Position numbers and translations under genes: made by a program
Part shown: one piece after another, positions 15,222 through 23,337 of the stretch
Position numbering within the stretch: the first letter of the stretch is position 1
Layout of the letters: every line of letters begins with the position of its first letter
NCBI GenBank assembly: GCA_902825985.1
Contig: CADEDC010000005.1
Coordinates: forward strand, 6,297-70,296
Length of the DNA: 64,000 bases
Direction: 5' to 3'
Source of the DNA: an uncultured Acidobacteriota bacterium
Lineage (GTDB): Bacteria > Acidobacteriota > Vicinamibacteria > Vicinamibacterales > CAVVIG01
The notes under the pieces: model-generated
The model's input: only the letters and a program-made list of their open reading frames with translations
Told to the model about the DNA's origin: nothing
The model's database searches: none

Positions 15222-15638
15222 CTAGGCCTTGGCCGGCAGCGCCCGCTCGCGCAGGATCATCCAGTTGATCCCGAACCGGTCGCGCACCTGGCCGAACCGG
15301 GACGCGAAGAAGGTCTCCGCCAGCGGCATCAGCACCTTCCCGCTGTCCGCGAGTGCCGCGAACAGCCGCTCCGCCTCGTCATCGCTGTCGACGTTCAACG
15401 TCAGATAGGCGCTGCGCATCGGCTCGGCCGACGGGATGTCGGCGCCAGAGAGCGTCGTACCAGCGATCGACAGGCGGGCATGCAGCACGGCGTTCTTCCA
15501 GTCCGGTGGCACGCGACTTTGATCCGGCGCGTCGGCGTGGGTCATCATCATCTGGACCGATGCGCCAAGGTGCTGCTCGTAGAACCGGAACGCTTCGGCA
15601 CAGTTTCCGGCGAAGTTGACGTAGGTATGCATCCTCAC
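15222..15638 (-). CDS. VOC/PhnB-like protein
   Basis: 138-residue vicinal-oxygen-chelate fold protein of the PhnB/DUF1428-like group: HTYVNFAGNCAEAFRFYEQHLG at the start, WMILRE at the end. These proteins are dimeric and may bind metal or be glyoxalase/bleomycin-resistance relatives; no function is certain. GTG 15638 is preferred (AAGGAG nine bases upstream; gives MRMHTYVNF, like homologues), with ATG 15632 as alternative. Confidence 0.8.
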   Translation of the reverse strand: MRMHTYVNFAGNCAEAFRFYEQHLGASVQMMMTHADAPDQSRVPPDWKNAVLHARLSIAGTTLSGADIPSAEPMRSAYLTLNVDSDDEAERLFAALADSGKVLMPLAETFFASRFGQVRDRFGINWMILRERALPAKA

Positions 15639-15667
15639 GGTGCGGATCTCCTTGACGGCGAGTTGTG

Positions 15668-16516
15668 TCAGTGTCTGGTCGATCCGGGCCGGCCCGAATC
15701 GACGTCGCGTCCGTAGACCCACACCTGGTAGCCGTCACGCAGCGTGCGCAGCAGCGTGTTGAGCATCCACATCGGCACCGGGGACCGTCCAGCCTCACAC
15801 GCCCGGCCGGGAATCGAATGTCGCCGGCGACACCGATAGCCGGCGGCTTCGATGATGATGTGCGGATGCACCGTACGCTCGCCGAAGGTTGCGCCCATCG
15901 CCGCGAGACGCGTGCGCAGCGGGCGGCCGAAGGTGCGGGCGAAGAACGGCGACATCAGATCGCAGACGAGCGTCGCCCGCGGCAGCGCCTCCGCCAGAGC
16001 CCCGCTCAGCCGCCGGAGGGCGTCGTCCGACAAGTACATGCTGACCCCCTCCAGGACGACCACCGCCTCATCGTCGCCGGCCAACGCGGCGATGTAGTCG
16101 TCCGGCGCCGCCGTCTCGAACGAGACGGGGATACGCGTGAGCGGATTCCGGGCCTGGTGCGCCGGCAGGCGCTGTTCCTTGAACGCGAGGAGCGGCGGGT
16201 CGTCCAGTTCGGTCCACCGTCCACCGACCAGGCGGAACGGCCGGGTGTCGAAGCCGGCACCCAGCACGATGATCCGCCGGTCGGGGTTCGACGCCAGACG
16301 CTCCCGCAGTTCATCGTCGATGAGACGGTGGCGGGCGACATTGCTGTCCGCCGGTGCACCCAGGCTCAGCAGCGGCGCCAGGTCACGTCGGACGGCGTCG
16401 TCCACGAACCGACCCGCGAAGGTGTCGCCGCAGAGCGGATGTGTCGACGCGGCGTCATCGGCCCTGATGACGCAGCAGTAGAACGCCGTGCGGGCGATCG
16501 GCTGGCTGATGTCCAT
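15668..16516 (-). CDS. leucine-carboxyl-methyltransferase-like SAM methyltransferase
   Basis: 282 residues from ATG 16516 (DISQPIARTAFYCCVIRADDA, the usual N-terminus of this family). The SAM-binding motif is IIVLGAGFDTRPFR, followed by the acidic strand motif WTELDDPPLLAFKEQR and VVVLEGVSMYLS, as in TIGR00027/LCMT (PPM1) methyltransferases. Bacterial members methylate small molecules or unknown carboxylates. It sits between the VOC gene and the EamA transporter on the same strand. Confidence 0.85.
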   Translation of the reverse strand: MDISQPIARTAFYCCVIRADDAASTHPLCGDTFAGRFVDDAVRRDLAPLLSLGAPADSNVARHRLIDDELRERLASNPDRRIIVLGAGFDTRPFRLVGGRWTELDDPPLLAFKEQRLPAHQARNPLTRIPVSFETAAPDDYIAALAGDDEAVVVLEGVSMYLSDDALRRLSGALAEALPRATLVCDLMSPFFARTFGRPLRTRLAAMGATFGERTVHPHIIIEAAGYRCRRRHSIPGRACEAGRSPVPMWMLNTLLRTLRDGYQVWVYGRDVDSGRPGSTRH

Positions 16517-16577
16517 GTGGCGCCTGATGCTATACGGCAGCCGGTGGGCCGGCAAGCCTGCCGCAATCCAGTGAAAG

Positions 16578-17444
16578 TCACCGGCGCGCCGGCCGCAGGG
16601 CCACACCGACGCCCGCCAGCACGGTCGCGATGCCGGCTACCGCCATCGGCGTCACCGTCTCGTCCAGGAACAGGCGTCCCAGCGCCAGCGCGACGATCGG
16701 AATGATCAGTGTGCTGAGACTCACGATGGTCGCGTCCATCTGCCTGATCAGGATGTAGTAGGCCCAGAACGCGATCACCGAGCCGAAAACCGCCAGATAG
16801 ACGATCGCGAGCACGTTGTCGCGGCTCCAGGCGACGTCGGACCAGTTCTCGATGGCGGCGCTCATGACGAGCAGGCAGATGGCTCCGATCCCCATGCCGA
16901 AGAAGTTGAGGACGAAGGTGTCGCTGTGGCGCCCGTACTTCTTCATCGTCACCAGGTTGATCGCGGCAAAGGCGCTCGCCGCCAGGGCCGCCAGCATGCC
17001 GAGTGCCGCAGCGCCGCCGATCTGCTCCGCCGGGCCGAAGAGCAGGGCCGTGCCGACGACGCCGATCAGGATGCCGACGACCTTCCGGCCGCTCAGCATC
17101 TCGGTCCGCGTCCAGTAGGCGCTGAGCAGTGACGTCACCAGCGGCATCGTCGAGAAGAGGATCGCGGTGAGGCCGCTCGATATGCGCGTCTCGGCCCAGT
17201 ACACGGCGGCGTAGTCGAGCCAGAAGACCAGCAGTCCGAGCGACAGGATGCAGATCCGGTCGTCGCGTGTCAGCCGAATCGGTGTGCGCCGGCCGACCAG
17301 CACGGCACCGATGATCAGCGTCGACAGCAGGAAACGCAGACCGGCACCGAGAAAGGGCGGCACGCCGATGAGGCCGATCTTGATCGCCACCCACGTGGAG
17401 CCCCAGATCAGACAGATGAGGGCGAAGAGGAAGGCTGCCATCAT
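16578..17444 (-). CDS. EamA/DMT-family transporter
   Basis: 288 residues with ten predicted membrane segments arranged as two five-helix EamA repeats; typical motifs LIWGSTWVAIKIGL and FWAYYILIRQ. Members export amino acids or other metabolites. The first of two ATGs (17444) overlaps the prepilin-peptidase-like stop as ATGA, so translation is coupled. The reading frame stays open far upstream, but that part overlaps the peptidase gene. Confidence 0.88.
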   Translation of the reverse strand: MMAAFLFALICLIWGSTWVAIKIGLIGVPPFLGAGLRFLLSTLIIGAVLVGRRTPIRLTRDDRICILSLGLLVFWLDYAAVYWAETRISSGLTAILFSTMPLVTSLLSAYWTRTEMLSGRKVVGILIGVVGTALLFGPAEQIGGAAALGMLAALAASAFAAINLVTMKKYGRHSDTFVLNFFGMGIGAICLLVMSAAIENWSDVAWSRDNVLAIVYLAVFGSVIAFWAYYILIRQMDATIVSLSTLIIPIVALALGRLFLDETVTPMAVAGIATVLAGVGVALRPARR

Positions 17445-18199
17445 GCCGGGTGTCCAACGGCCCAGCGCAGCAGCGCTCCGTCGGCAAAAGCCGCCACCAT
17501 GGTTGCGGCCGCCAGGCAGGCGCCGAATGTGACGCTGACGCGCGGCGACGCCAGCCTGGCGCCGGCGAGCGTCGCGGCGACGAGCGGCGTCAGTGCCAGC
17601 GCCACCAGCAATCCCTGCCAGCCGAGGAACGCGCCGACCATCGCCAGCAACGTCGCGTTGCCGGTGGAGGGGGTGGCCTGACGCCGCAGCCGTGCCGCGA
17701 CGAACGCGATGACGAGCAAGCTGCCGGCGAGCGTCGCGCCGAGCAGCGACGCGCTCCAGCCGGGGTGGGCGAACATGCTGAAGATCACGCCGGCGCCGAT
17801 GCCGACCTGCGCAATTGGCGCGGGCAGGGTCCGGTGGCGCAGCGAGATCATGAAGAGCACGACCATGGAAGAAACGAGGACGACGCGCGAGTAGAGGAGC
17901 CAGCCGAAGCCATACTGAAGCGTAAGGCCGACGTAGAGCAGGCCGGTGATCAGCTCGACGATCGGGTATTGCCACGAGATGGACGTCCGGCAGCTCCGGC
18001 AGCGGGCGCGCAGCGCCAGAAAACTCACGACCGGGATGTTCTCCCACCAGGCCAGGAGGTGGCCGCAGCGCGGGCACCCAGAGGCCGGACGCGCGACCGA
18101 CTGGCCGACCGGCAGCCGCAGGATGCAGACGTTGAGGAAGCTGCCGATGAGCAGCCCCAGGGCCGCCATCTGGTATGGGAGGGCTTCGTCCGGCGTCAC
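17441..18199 (-). CDS. prepilin peptidase (A24) homologue lacking both catalytic aspartates
   Basis: 252 residues, polytopic. The N-terminal zinc/methyltransferase domain is intact (IGSFLNVCILRLP; CPRC at 42-45 and CRSC at 67-70). The peptidase domain is clearly homologous but has SLRHRTLPAP where active enzymes have DLRHxxLPD (S119 for the first Asp) and STGNATLLAMVGAFLGW where GxGDxKLLAMVGAFLGW is normal (N181 for the second Asp, T183 for Lys). A24 proteolysis therefore appears lost; N-methylation or a scaffold role could remain. No pilin genes lie nearby. Its stop overlaps the EamA start. Confidence 0.85.
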   Translation of the reverse strand: MTPDEALPYQMAALGLLIGSFLNVCILRLPVGQSVARPASGCPRCGHLLAWWENIPVVSFLALRARCRSCRTSISWQYPIVELITGLLYVGLTLQYGFGWLLYSRVVLVSSMVVLFMISLRHRTLPAPIAQVGIGAGVIFSMFAHPGWSASLLGATLAGSLLVIAFVAARLRRQATPSTGNATLLAMVGAFLGWQGLLVALALTPLVAATLAGARLASPRVSVTFGACLAAATMVAAFADGALLRWAVGHPA

Positions 18200-20373: not shown

Positions 20374-20937
20374 GTGGCTTACGTATCCCAGCCGTTCCGT
20401 ACGTTACTGATCCAGGACGCCGCCAGATTGATGGGCGTTTCGCGCCGCACGGTGTACTACCGGCTTCGTGAGGGCCGGCTCCAGTCGGTCAAGACGCGCG
20501 GCGGTTCGCGCCGGATCGTGGTGCCGTCCATCGAGTGGTTGCGCCGCCAGGGCCTGCGGAAGAATGCGGCGCTTCGACGGCGAGAGAAGGCCGGCGGCGT
20601 CGACTCCCGATCAGAGACCAAAACGCAACCGCTTCAGATACAGCCCCTTGCGCGAGATTCCGAGGGTTCGGGCGGTGTCGTCGAGCCTTCCGCTGCTGGT
20701 CTTCAGCGCGGCGGCGATCATGTCGCGCTCCATCCGGGCGAGCGCGGCGTTCAGCGTTTCGTGGCGGAGGCCGCGTCCATCCCGCGCGACATCCGCCTGA
20801 CCGTGCCGTCCGCGCCGGATATCGGGCGACAGCGCGTCGGCCGTGATGCGGGTGTCGTTGTCGGCCAGGGCGACGACCCGCCGCAGTTCGTTGCTCAGCT
20901 CGCGGACGTTACCGGGCCAATGGTAGAGCCCCAGTAG
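20374..20937 (+). CDS. small MerR/excisionase-type HTH protein, with antisense C-terminal extension
   Basis: The first ~55 residues are a winged-helix excisionase-type DNA-binding domain (IQDAARLMGVSRRTVYYRL, then EGRLQSVKTRGGSRRIVV), closely matching the paralogue at 27561. The frame then has no stop until 20937, so 327 bases run antisense through the end of the sigma-54 regulator and give ~110 Pro/Gly/Arg-rich residues of no recognisable fold. Either the original stop was lost or the product really carries this tail. Start uncertain: GTG 20374 is nearly leaderless relative to the sigma-54 promoter. Predicted DNA-binding regulator. Confidence 0.55.
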   Translation: MAYVSQPFRTLLIQDAARLMGVSRRTVYYRLREGRLQSVKTRGGSRRIVVPSIEWLRRQGLRKNAALRRREKAGGVDSRSETKTQPLQIQPLARDSEGSGGVVEPSAAGLQRGGDHVALHPGERGVQRFVAEAASIPRDIRLTVPSAPDIGRQRVGRDAGVVVGQGDDPPQFVAQLADVTGPMVEPQ

Positions 20938-23337
20938 TTCGAGCGCCTCGTCATCGAGCTGGATTTGCCCCTTCTCGTATTCTGTGGCGGCCTTCTGGAC
21001 GAAATGACGGGCCAGGAACGGGATTTCGTCGCGCCGCTCGCGAAGCGGCGGGATGCTCAACGGCACGACGCGCAGCCGGTAGAAGAGGTCGGCGCGGAAT
21101 CGGCCCTCCTGCACCAGCCGCTCGAGATTCGCGTTCGTCGCGGCAATGATCCGGGTGGCCACCTGCACGGGTTCGGCTTCACCCAGGGGGTTGATCTCGC
21201 CTGATTCCAGGAACCGCAGCAGCTTCGGCTGCAGGTCGAGCGTCAACTCGCCGACCTCGTCGAGAAACAGCGTGCCGTCCTTGGCGATGCGAACGACGCC
21301 GGGGTGGTCACGCTCGGCGCCGGTGAACGCGCCGCGGCGGTAGCCGAAGAGGTGGCTCTCGAGCAGGTCGCGTGGAACCGCGGTGCAGTTGAAGGGGACG
21401 AACGGGCGTCCCGGGCGATTCGAGTAGCGGTGCAGCGCGCGCGCGACGATTTCCTTGCCAGTGCCGCTCTCACCCGTGATGAGGACGCTCGCCGAGGTCG
21501 GCGCGACTTTTCTCACCAGTCGCATCACCTCGCGCATCGCGCCTTGAATCACGGCGTCATCGTCGGCATCCTGCAGTTCTTCGACCGGCCAGAGTCCGAG
21601 GCGTTCTTCGCGCTCGGCGCGCGCCGCATCGAGATCGCGGACGACCTCGAGCAGGGAGGACACCGCGTTGACAGTGGCAATTCCGTCGACGTTGCGCATC
21701 GGTTCGTAGGTGAGCTCGATGCTGCGGTTGCGTGACGTGCCGATGCAGATGGTCCGGCTCTGTAGCGGAGCAGTGCCGTCGTCCGGAACGGGAATGGCGT
21801 GGGCCGCGAGATGTTCGACGCGACCGTCGTCGTGACGAGCCGCAGCCGAGACGCGGGCGATGCATCCGGTGGCCGCCAGCACTTCGACGAGGTCTGTCGC
21901 GAGGAGTTCCGGCCGGCCGACGTGAAGCAGCAACGCGAGGACGTCCTGCACGGCGCGAGCGGCGTGTGACGCCTGCGCCGGGTCGGGCGGTGACAGCCGC
22001 TGGGCGATTGGCAGGGACACTCCGAGCGACGCAGACGCGCGTTGCAGCTGCATCTGTCCCGGGCGATGCCGCAGGCCATCGTATACGCGGGCTGCTCGGC
22101 CGAAGTGAGCGATACCGGAGGCTTCGCGCGATCCGGCGACTGCCGATCCGAGGACGCGTTCGTAGTGGGCCAGCAGTTCAACCGGCAGCGTCGCGACGGA
22201 GGTCCGCAGGCTGTCGACGAGCGTGATCAGTTCACTGTATCGACCCTGCAGGCACAGAATCTCTGCGCGGGTCAGATCGCACAGGTTGCGCAGCAGTCGA
22301 TCTCCTGAACGCTCGGCGAGTTCGTAGGCCAGAGCAGTTTGCCTGAGGGCGTCTTCGTACCGACCCTCGTGCTGCATCACAACGGCGCGCGTTAACTGAG
22401 CGTGGCGGTGTGTGTAGAGCGTTAAGTCCGATTCTGACCGCATGGCGGCATCAACCGAGTCGAGACACTGGTTGGCTGCTTCGATATGCCCCTCGAAGAG
22501 GTTCAACCTAGCGGTACTCTCAGCGAGCCCCTTGCAGTACTCGCCGTCCGTTTGCAGCTCATCAGCCGCACGTCGGTAAAAGTCGCGCGCCTTTTCCCAG
22601 GAGCCTTCAAGTACGAAAAGGTTTCCGAGATTCCCAAGGCATGCACGTTTTACCGCGGCCGCACCGCTCAACTCTGACGCGGCAGACGCAGCAATGGCAT
22701 GCTTCATACCTGTCTCGAAGTCTCCCTCGATCAGAGCGAGGCCAACGAGCGTGTTCTCAGCCAATGCCGTAAGCCAGACATTTGGGGTGTAGTTCAAAAG
22801 CTTGAGGCCCAGCACTGTATGCCGCCGTGCGGTCTGCCGGGCCCCGTGCTTGGCTGCGACCTCGCCCACGAAGACATGAAGTGCCGCTGATGTGAGGGGG
22901 TCGCCCAGTTTGACTACCTCAAGCCTGCACTGTGAGATCCAGGGCGCAGAGGCTTGAGCGGATAGCTTTCCACACTGGGCAACGAGCAGTCTTAGTTGGA
23001 CCCAGCACACGCGTCTGGCGTCATTAGCTTGACGGGCAAGCTCCAGTGCTTTAACAAAAAGCTCAATGCCTCTGTCGAACCGGCCCTCATCTAACTCGAT
23101 TCGTCCAAGAGCTGCCCGGCAGTCCGCTTGATAGGCCGGGGCGAGCAACCTTGAGCGCAGCGCCCGTTCAGCCAAATGGCGGGCCCTGCCATAGTCTCCC
23201 AATCGTTCCAGTAGTTCGATCCGAAGGATGTCCGCCCGTTGTCGTTCCGCAGTCGTGACTGTGGCGCCGTTGAGGGCGCGAAGCGCTTCTGCAAAGCGTC
23301 CTTCGTTGGCTAGGACAAGCGTGTCTTGTAGTCGCAT
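20611..23337 (-). CDS. sigma-54-dependent enhancer-binding protein with TPR sensor
   Basis: 908-residue transcription activator. N-terminal ~430 residues are helical TPR-like repeats (ANEGRFAEALRALNGA; LGDYGRARHLAERAL; ELDEGRFDRGIELFVKAL), then a GAF-like linker domain (~470-590). The AAA+ core has Walker A GESGTGKE near residue 622, the sigma-54 contact loop GAFTGA near 671, Walker B GTLFLDEVGEL and arginine finger region FRADLFYRLRVVPLSIPPLRER. A Fis-type HTH ends the protein (DDTARTLGISRKGLYLKRL). It should remodel sigma-54 polymerase at -24/-12 promoters, two of which flank this cluster. The TPR half is visibly lower in G+C than the rest. Confidence 0.92.
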   Translation of the reverse strand: MRLQDTLVLANEGRFAEALRALNGATVTTAERQRADILRIELLERLGDYGRARHLAERALRSRLLAPAYQADCRAALGRIELDEGRFDRGIELFVKALELARQANDARRVCWVQLRLLVAQCGKLSAQASAPWISQCRLEVVKLGDPLTSAALHVFVGEVAAKHGARQTARRHTVLGLKLLNYTPNVWLTALAENTLVGLALIEGDFETGMKHAIAASAASELSGAAAVKRACLGNLGNLFVLEGSWEKARDFYRRAADELQTDGEYCKGLAESTARLNLFEGHIEAANQCLDSVDAAMRSESDLTLYTHRHAQLTRAVVMQHEGRYEDALRQTALAYELAERSGDRLLRNLCDLTRAEILCLQGRYSELITLVDSLRTSVATLPVELLAHYERVLGSAVAGSREASGIAHFGRAARVYDGLRHRPGQMQLQRASASLGVSLPIAQRLSPPDPAQASHAARAVQDVLALLLHVGRPELLATDLVEVLAATGCIARVSAAARHDDGRVEHLAAHAIPVPDDGTAPLQSRTICIGTSRNRSIELTYEPMRNVDGIATVNAVSSLLEVVRDLDAARAEREERLGLWPVEELQDADDDAVIQGAMREVMRLVRKVAPTSASVLITGESGTGKEIVARALHRYSNRPGRPFVPFNCTAVPRDLLESHLFGYRRGAFTGAERDHPGVVRIAKDGTLFLDEVGELTLDLQPKLLRFLESGEINPLGEAEPVQVATRIIAATNANLERLVQEGRFRADLFYRLRVVPLSIPPLRERRDEIPFLARHFVQKAATEYEKGQIQLDDEALELLGLYHWPGNVRELSNELRRVVALADNDTRITADALSPDIRRGRHGQADVARDGRGLRHETLNAALARMERDMIAAALKTSSGRLDDTARTLGISRKGLYLKRLRFGL

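Follow-up and report, generated by a model that had tools for sequence, protein, structure and literature searches.

A PilD-like protein of an uncultured Acidobacteriota bacterium pairs a degenerate peptidase domain with a constrained methylase domain

Is a prepilin peptidase homologue that has lost both catalytic aspartates still a maintained protein, and if so, for which of its two domains? The question is raised by a PilD-like gene in the window, a 64,000-nucleotide stretch of the genome of an uncultured Acidobacteriota bacterium. The open reading frame at 17441-18199 and its altered residues are as the first-pass annotation described: the first A24 aspartate motif reads SLRHRTLPAP (S119), and the second reads STGNATLLAMVGAFLGW (N181, T183), in which GxGD is changed to STGN. 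That annotation gave the first motif as DLRHxxLPD, which is correct with respect to S119; the family motif is DLxHxxLPN, and the residue after LP is altered from Asn, not Asp, to Ala. The window protein is thus without both catalytic aspartates, the first glycine and the lysine of GxGDxK. At both aspartate sites, its sister gene from genome G010 and the genome's own intact copy have a GAC codon, and aspartate occupies the two columns in 57 of the 57 Acidobacteriota-type copies of the curated alignment. Of the 232 fetched loci that gave a match, every complete copy apart from the window gene itself (present under five ids) keeps both motifs, and the one other exception is a copy truncated at a contig end. 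Cleavage of prepilin leaders by the window protein is expected to be absent.

The gene is a single sequence from one draft genome (5.8 Mb, 98% complete, 174 contigs, 3.7% contamination), and the contig that holds the window measures 125 kb. Best matches in named records assign the genome to the Acidobacteriota, probably to the Vicinamibacterales. Its frame is open, with zero internal stops over 252 codons, and both PilD Pfam domains exceed their cut-offs. The A24_N_bact domain, with the four zinc-site cysteines, covers residues 14-95 with an E-value of 2.3e-34 and 117.7 bits, compared to 113.1 bits for the G010 sister and 123.7 bits for the genome's own intact copy on contig C46. The homologous Peptidase_A24 domain, which lacks the two aspartates of DLxHxxLPN and GxGD, is recognized barely, with an E-value of 5.1e-6 and 27.3 bits (cut-off 26.5), compared to 81.3 bits for the sister and 77.6 bits for the intact copy. 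The AlphaFold model derived from the alignment is confident over the whole length, with a mean pLDDT of 92. Foldseek of this model against the PDB gave no significant matches, and phmmer of the protein against the PDB gave none. The features are listed in Table 1.

Table 1. Positions in the window of the pilD-like gene, its domains and key residues, and the adjoining genes
Feature	Coordinates	Strand	Basis or remark
PilD-like pseudo-prepilin peptidase	17441..18199	(-)	252 aa, GTG start, full-length ORF
TM1 and cytoplasmic methylase/zinc domain (A24_N_bact), residues 1-95	17915..18199	(-)	Pfam, conserved columns, rates
CPRC, first zinc-site cysteine pair, residues 42-45	18065..18076	(-)	invariant in 109 relatives
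CRSC, second zinc-site cysteine pair, residues 67-70, preceded by A65-R66	17990..18001	(-)	sequence
Degenerate peptidase domain, residues 96-252	17444..17914	(-)	low Peptidase_A24 score, long branch
S119 codon TCG, first catalytic aspartate site	17843..17845	(-)	alignment
N181 codon AAC, second catalytic aspartate site	17657..17659	(-)	alignment
T183 codon ACG, conserved Lys site of GxGDxK	17651..17653	(-)	alignment
EamA-family transporter	16578..17444	(-)	start overlaps pilD-like stop via ATGA
LCM-type SAM-dependent methyltransferase (leucine carboxyl methyltransferase family)	15668..16606	(-)	longest ORF overlaps EamA end

The two halves of the protein have evolved at very different rates. 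The split was placed where the Pfam methylase domain ends, at residue 95, and this boundary was not tuned. In the N-terminal part, the branch of the window protein (0.137) is no longer than that of the sister (0.139), and Tajima relative-rate tests against six outgroups show no significant difference (p 0.23-1). In the C-terminal part, the branch lengths are 2.3-2.9 versus 0.13, about 20 times faster, and the same tests find a strong difference (p 8e-5 to 2e-9). The earlier statement that the rest of the protein is well preserved therefore holds for the N-terminal 95 residues (76% identity to the sister) but not for residues 96-252 (41%), with strong divergence setting in downstream of about residue 130. 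Among columns with a family conservation of 90% or more, the window protein keeps 28 of 29 in the N part and 28 of 47 in the C part (Fisher p 3e-4), where structural residues such as GAFLGW persist. When intact copies are compared in 1540 pairs, conservation is on average higher in the C part (0.60 vs 0.54), an order that is inverted in the window gene.

The codon-level data agree in direction. Against the sister, NG86 dN/dS is 0.165/0.714 in the N part and 0.52/0.89 in the C part, and the change at codon positions 1/2/3 is 0.15/0.15/0.40 and 0.42/0.32/0.51, respectively. A neutral simulation under a rough model gives about 0.5-0.6 change at positions 1 and 2; the observed change lies below this expectation, so that the C part is not wholly free. 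As the simulation overshoots even the N part for absolute dN/dS, only the comparison of one half with the other was used. Synonymous sites between the window gene and its sister are saturated, the N part included, which indicates that the N domain has been retained over a long time; the saturation also leaves zero power for dating the two halves by synonymous divergence, and this approach was dropped. Altogether, the peptidase domain is largely released from constraint, whereas the methylase/zinc domain is still constrained, to the same degree as in functional enzymes.

As previously annotated, the CPRC/CRSC zinc site is preserved, with its four cysteines at residues 42-45 and 67-70, and all 22 N-domain columns that are at least 98% conserved are retained, every zinc cysteine among them. 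The basic residue ahead of the third cysteine is kept (R66). The glycine position before that cysteine, which by position we take to be Gly95 of P. aeruginosa PilD, is Gly in most PilD proteins, Ala65 in the window protein and Arg in its sister. In a study of P. aeruginosa PilD, the glycine adjoining the third cysteine is reported to have a part in methylation (PMC3584216, citing Pepe and Lory 1998). The effect of Ala65 is uncertain because 8 of 62 copies that are canonical in other respects also have alanine there; it lowers the standing of a methylase reading, without removing it. The arginine is found in the only PilD of G010 (L086 / L133 7770-8543), whose pilins may be unmethylated, to judge from this residue.

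The search for a second, intact pilD that had been recommended was successful. The genome has four A24 proteins: a full-length PilD on C46, two short ones of TadV size (on C47 and C3) and the window copy. The intact pilD shares with pilS, pilR and an N_methyl pilin a locus conserved among relatives, and eight pilin-type N-termini (PF07963) are found elsewhere in the genome. Each of the 26 remaining family genomes has one full-length copy, except G013, which has two matches, both intact and located at or near contig ends; the genome of the same genus carries the standard copy only. It had also been asked whether Ser and Asn are conserved in orthologues. Neither is, and a search of 27 family, 162 order and 193 class genomes gave no orthologue of the altered copy. 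A decaying single copy had been named as the refuting case; the relatives do have aspartate, but frameshifts are absent and the gene is an extra copy.

In the tree, the window protein is sister to the sole PilD of G010, from another genus of the family (99/95), with a whole-protein end branch of 1.22 versus 0.13. As its sister is the G010 copy and not the one on C46, it is not a duplicate of the resident gene, and a recent duplication was rejected; transfer between genera, or an old duplication followed by losses, would each fit the tree. Within the same order, second prepilin peptidases in G078 (L203, C32), G081 (L204/L205, C180 and C64) and G095 (L213, C77) are the mirror image of the window copy: they retain both aspartates and have lost or degraded the methylase domain, with the G095 copy keeping the cysteines and losing the invariant Asn and Pro. 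From these reverse paralogues, the modules of PilD seem to split among paralogues in either direction in this order.

The pilD-like gene overlaps the EamA gene by 4 bp (ATGA, 17441-17444), and the two are probably co-transcribed. On the same strand, 15222-17444 holds EamA, an LCM-family SAM methyltransferase and a glyoxalase/PhnB-like gene, separated by overlaps or short gaps; the LCM-type gene is probably an operon member, although its link to the pseudo-peptidase is only putative, and the four genes possibly form one operon. The coupling to EamA noted earlier is thus real as an overlap, but it is not conserved: the nearest EamA orthologue (G020, 77%) has no pilD next to it, and neither do the Nramp/UspA loci of G025, G010, G020 and G013, so that a conserved pseudo-pilD/EamA pair was rejected. 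Given that relatives carry the flanking Nramp and UspA genes with no pilD copy next to them, the pair is most likely an accessory insertion. A remnant of a donor pil operon was likewise rejected, as similarity is absent upstream and downstream, and no pilin gene was found adjoining the pilD-like gene. Upstream of the Nramp gene, 20611-23337 encodes a TPR-containing sigma-54 activator with a C-terminal Fis HTH, the orthologue of which in G025:C8 is 60% identical.

Several explanations without a maintained function have to be weighed. That the altered residues stem from sequencing, assembly or binning is barely credible: the genome is a draft in 174 contigs with 3.7% contamination, but dozens of in-frame differences are spread across 157 codons without the frame ever being lost, and the 125-kb contig has stretches 70-79% DNA-identical to the same-genus genome, showing that it belongs here. 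Sequencing error was rejected on the domain-specific rates together with this contig identity, and a compensated frameshift in the C part on its absence from the DNA alignment. A decaying pseudogene, namely an extra pilD no longer under selection and in the course of being lost, is very improbable. It would account for the lost catalytic residues and the strongly accelerated C-terminal part, and the gene appears dispensable, being next to an intact copy and absent from the same-genus genome. However, the 252 codons hold zero stops and frameshifts, whereas only 10-19% of the neutral simulations of the C part remain stop-free and over 80% acquire stops (rough model); change at position 2 of the C part (0.32) is well under the neutral expectation of about 0.6, and the lack of any acceleration in the N part is incompatible with decay of the whole gene, which was rejected on the domain-specific rates. 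The gene thus shows neither stops nor frameshifts nor a gene-wide loss of constraint, in agreement with the earlier argument against simple decay, which here rests on the unaccelerated N domain and the open frame.

A chimera or partial gene conversion, in which a 5' part of G010-like pilD was joined to a 3' part from an older degenerate A24 copy, perhaps with no function left in the entire gene, is improbable, although the C-terminal part leaves it some room. There, the grouping with the sister lacks support (82/38), the segments 136-175 and 211-252 lie no nearer to the sister than to others, and residues diagnostic of the sister number 6 of 21, compared to 17 of 27 in the N part. Nevertheless, the sister is still the nearest sequence for residues 96-135 and takes fourth place among 56 for residues 176-210, the best tree of the C part pairs the window protein with the sister while union with the genome's own copy is marginally rejected (p-AU 0.041), and at the DNA level the alignment stays co-linear through residue 95, where no junction is seen. 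Synonymous divergence is saturated in the N part as well, so that this part was not replaced recently. Beyond residue 135 the signal is small, and that segment may come from another copy. Rather unlikely, but less so, is a non-enzymatic regulator or decoy. Such a protein would use its conserved N-domain and its membrane core to bind prepilins, or else the C46 PilD, SAM or zinc, and would modulate processing, as iRhoms do for their clients, without methylating anything itself. A dead protease whose fold (in the model) and cytoplasmic domain are preserved, and which has lost the glycine ahead of the third cysteine, would suit this role, and the iRhom pseudoproteases are a precedent in another family of intramembrane proteases (PMC6451368); by contrast, the complete retention of the 22 most conserved N-domain columns is more than binding obviously requires.

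The reading we favour, with somewhat less than even confidence, is an extra pilD that has lost prepilin-peptidase activity and is retained for its N-terminal cytoplasmic domain. In its broad form, namely that the protein is maintained with its peptidase dead and its N-domain working, the claim is probable; that the domain acts as a methylase on pilins is a tentative proposal. The earlier suggestion of a methyltransferase-only or regulatory pseudo-peptidase is partly supported: the second, intact pilD and the undiminished constraint on the methylase domain speak for a maintained function centred on the N-domain, and the alanine at the methylation glycine and the lack of Ser and Asn in orthologues speak against it. 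According to the study of P. aeruginosa PilD, the zinc bound by the four-cysteine domain is required for N-methylation and dispensable for cleavage, for which the two aspartates are required (PMC3584216), and the two activities are therefore separable. A constrained first module beside a released second one is the appearance expected of a methylase-only enzyme, and a regulator using the N-domain for binding would look similar.

We propose that the extra pilD would have been acquired from, or be common to, a relative of another genus in the family (the G010 lineage). The protein would be produced and reside in the inner membrane, where the peptidase domain may serve as a mere anchor and the four cysteines would bind zinc, and it might N-methylate pilins or pseudopilins in a SAM-dependent manner once the C46 PilD has cleaved them. 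The C46 PilD carries an intact methylase domain of its own, and such an extra function is not obviously needed for that reason. A natural split, in which a methylase-only pseudo-peptidase acts in N-methylation on pilins, or on other substrates, that a separate PilD has cleaved, in an Acidobacteriota lineage whose relatives carry the reverse, peptidase-only paralogues, is conceivable yet doubtful. If true, the conserved methylase half with its dead peptidase half would make it possible to examine methylation separately from cleavage, and would suggest that selection can act on methylation by itself; a natural methylation-only enzyme may help to reveal the purpose of pilin methylation. The open-licence literature searched describes no Asp-less prepilin peptidase, which leaves its absence unproven, and mention of a methylase without a peptidase was not found in excerpts on pilin-processing enzymes.

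Compared to PilD/GspO-type enzymes (A24, IPR010627 and IPR000045; e.g. P. aeruginosa PilD), the window protein has the same two-domain full length, the zinc-site CxxC...CxxC, IGSFLNVCIxRLP, YPxVE, MVGAFLGW and the predicted helices. It differs in that both aspartates are replaced, GxGDxK is destroyed and the peptidase domain is largely unconstrained, and its gene is an extra copy outside the pil locus. The short peptidases of the TadV/CpaA/FppA type and the N-domain-less copies of G078 and G081 resemble it in missing one A24 module; however, they keep the peptidase and are without the methylase, of which the window copy is the reverse. The inactive rhomboids (iRhoms) likewise lack the catalytic residues and preserve the fold. 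They are an unrelated family, and any client binding by the window protein would be putative.
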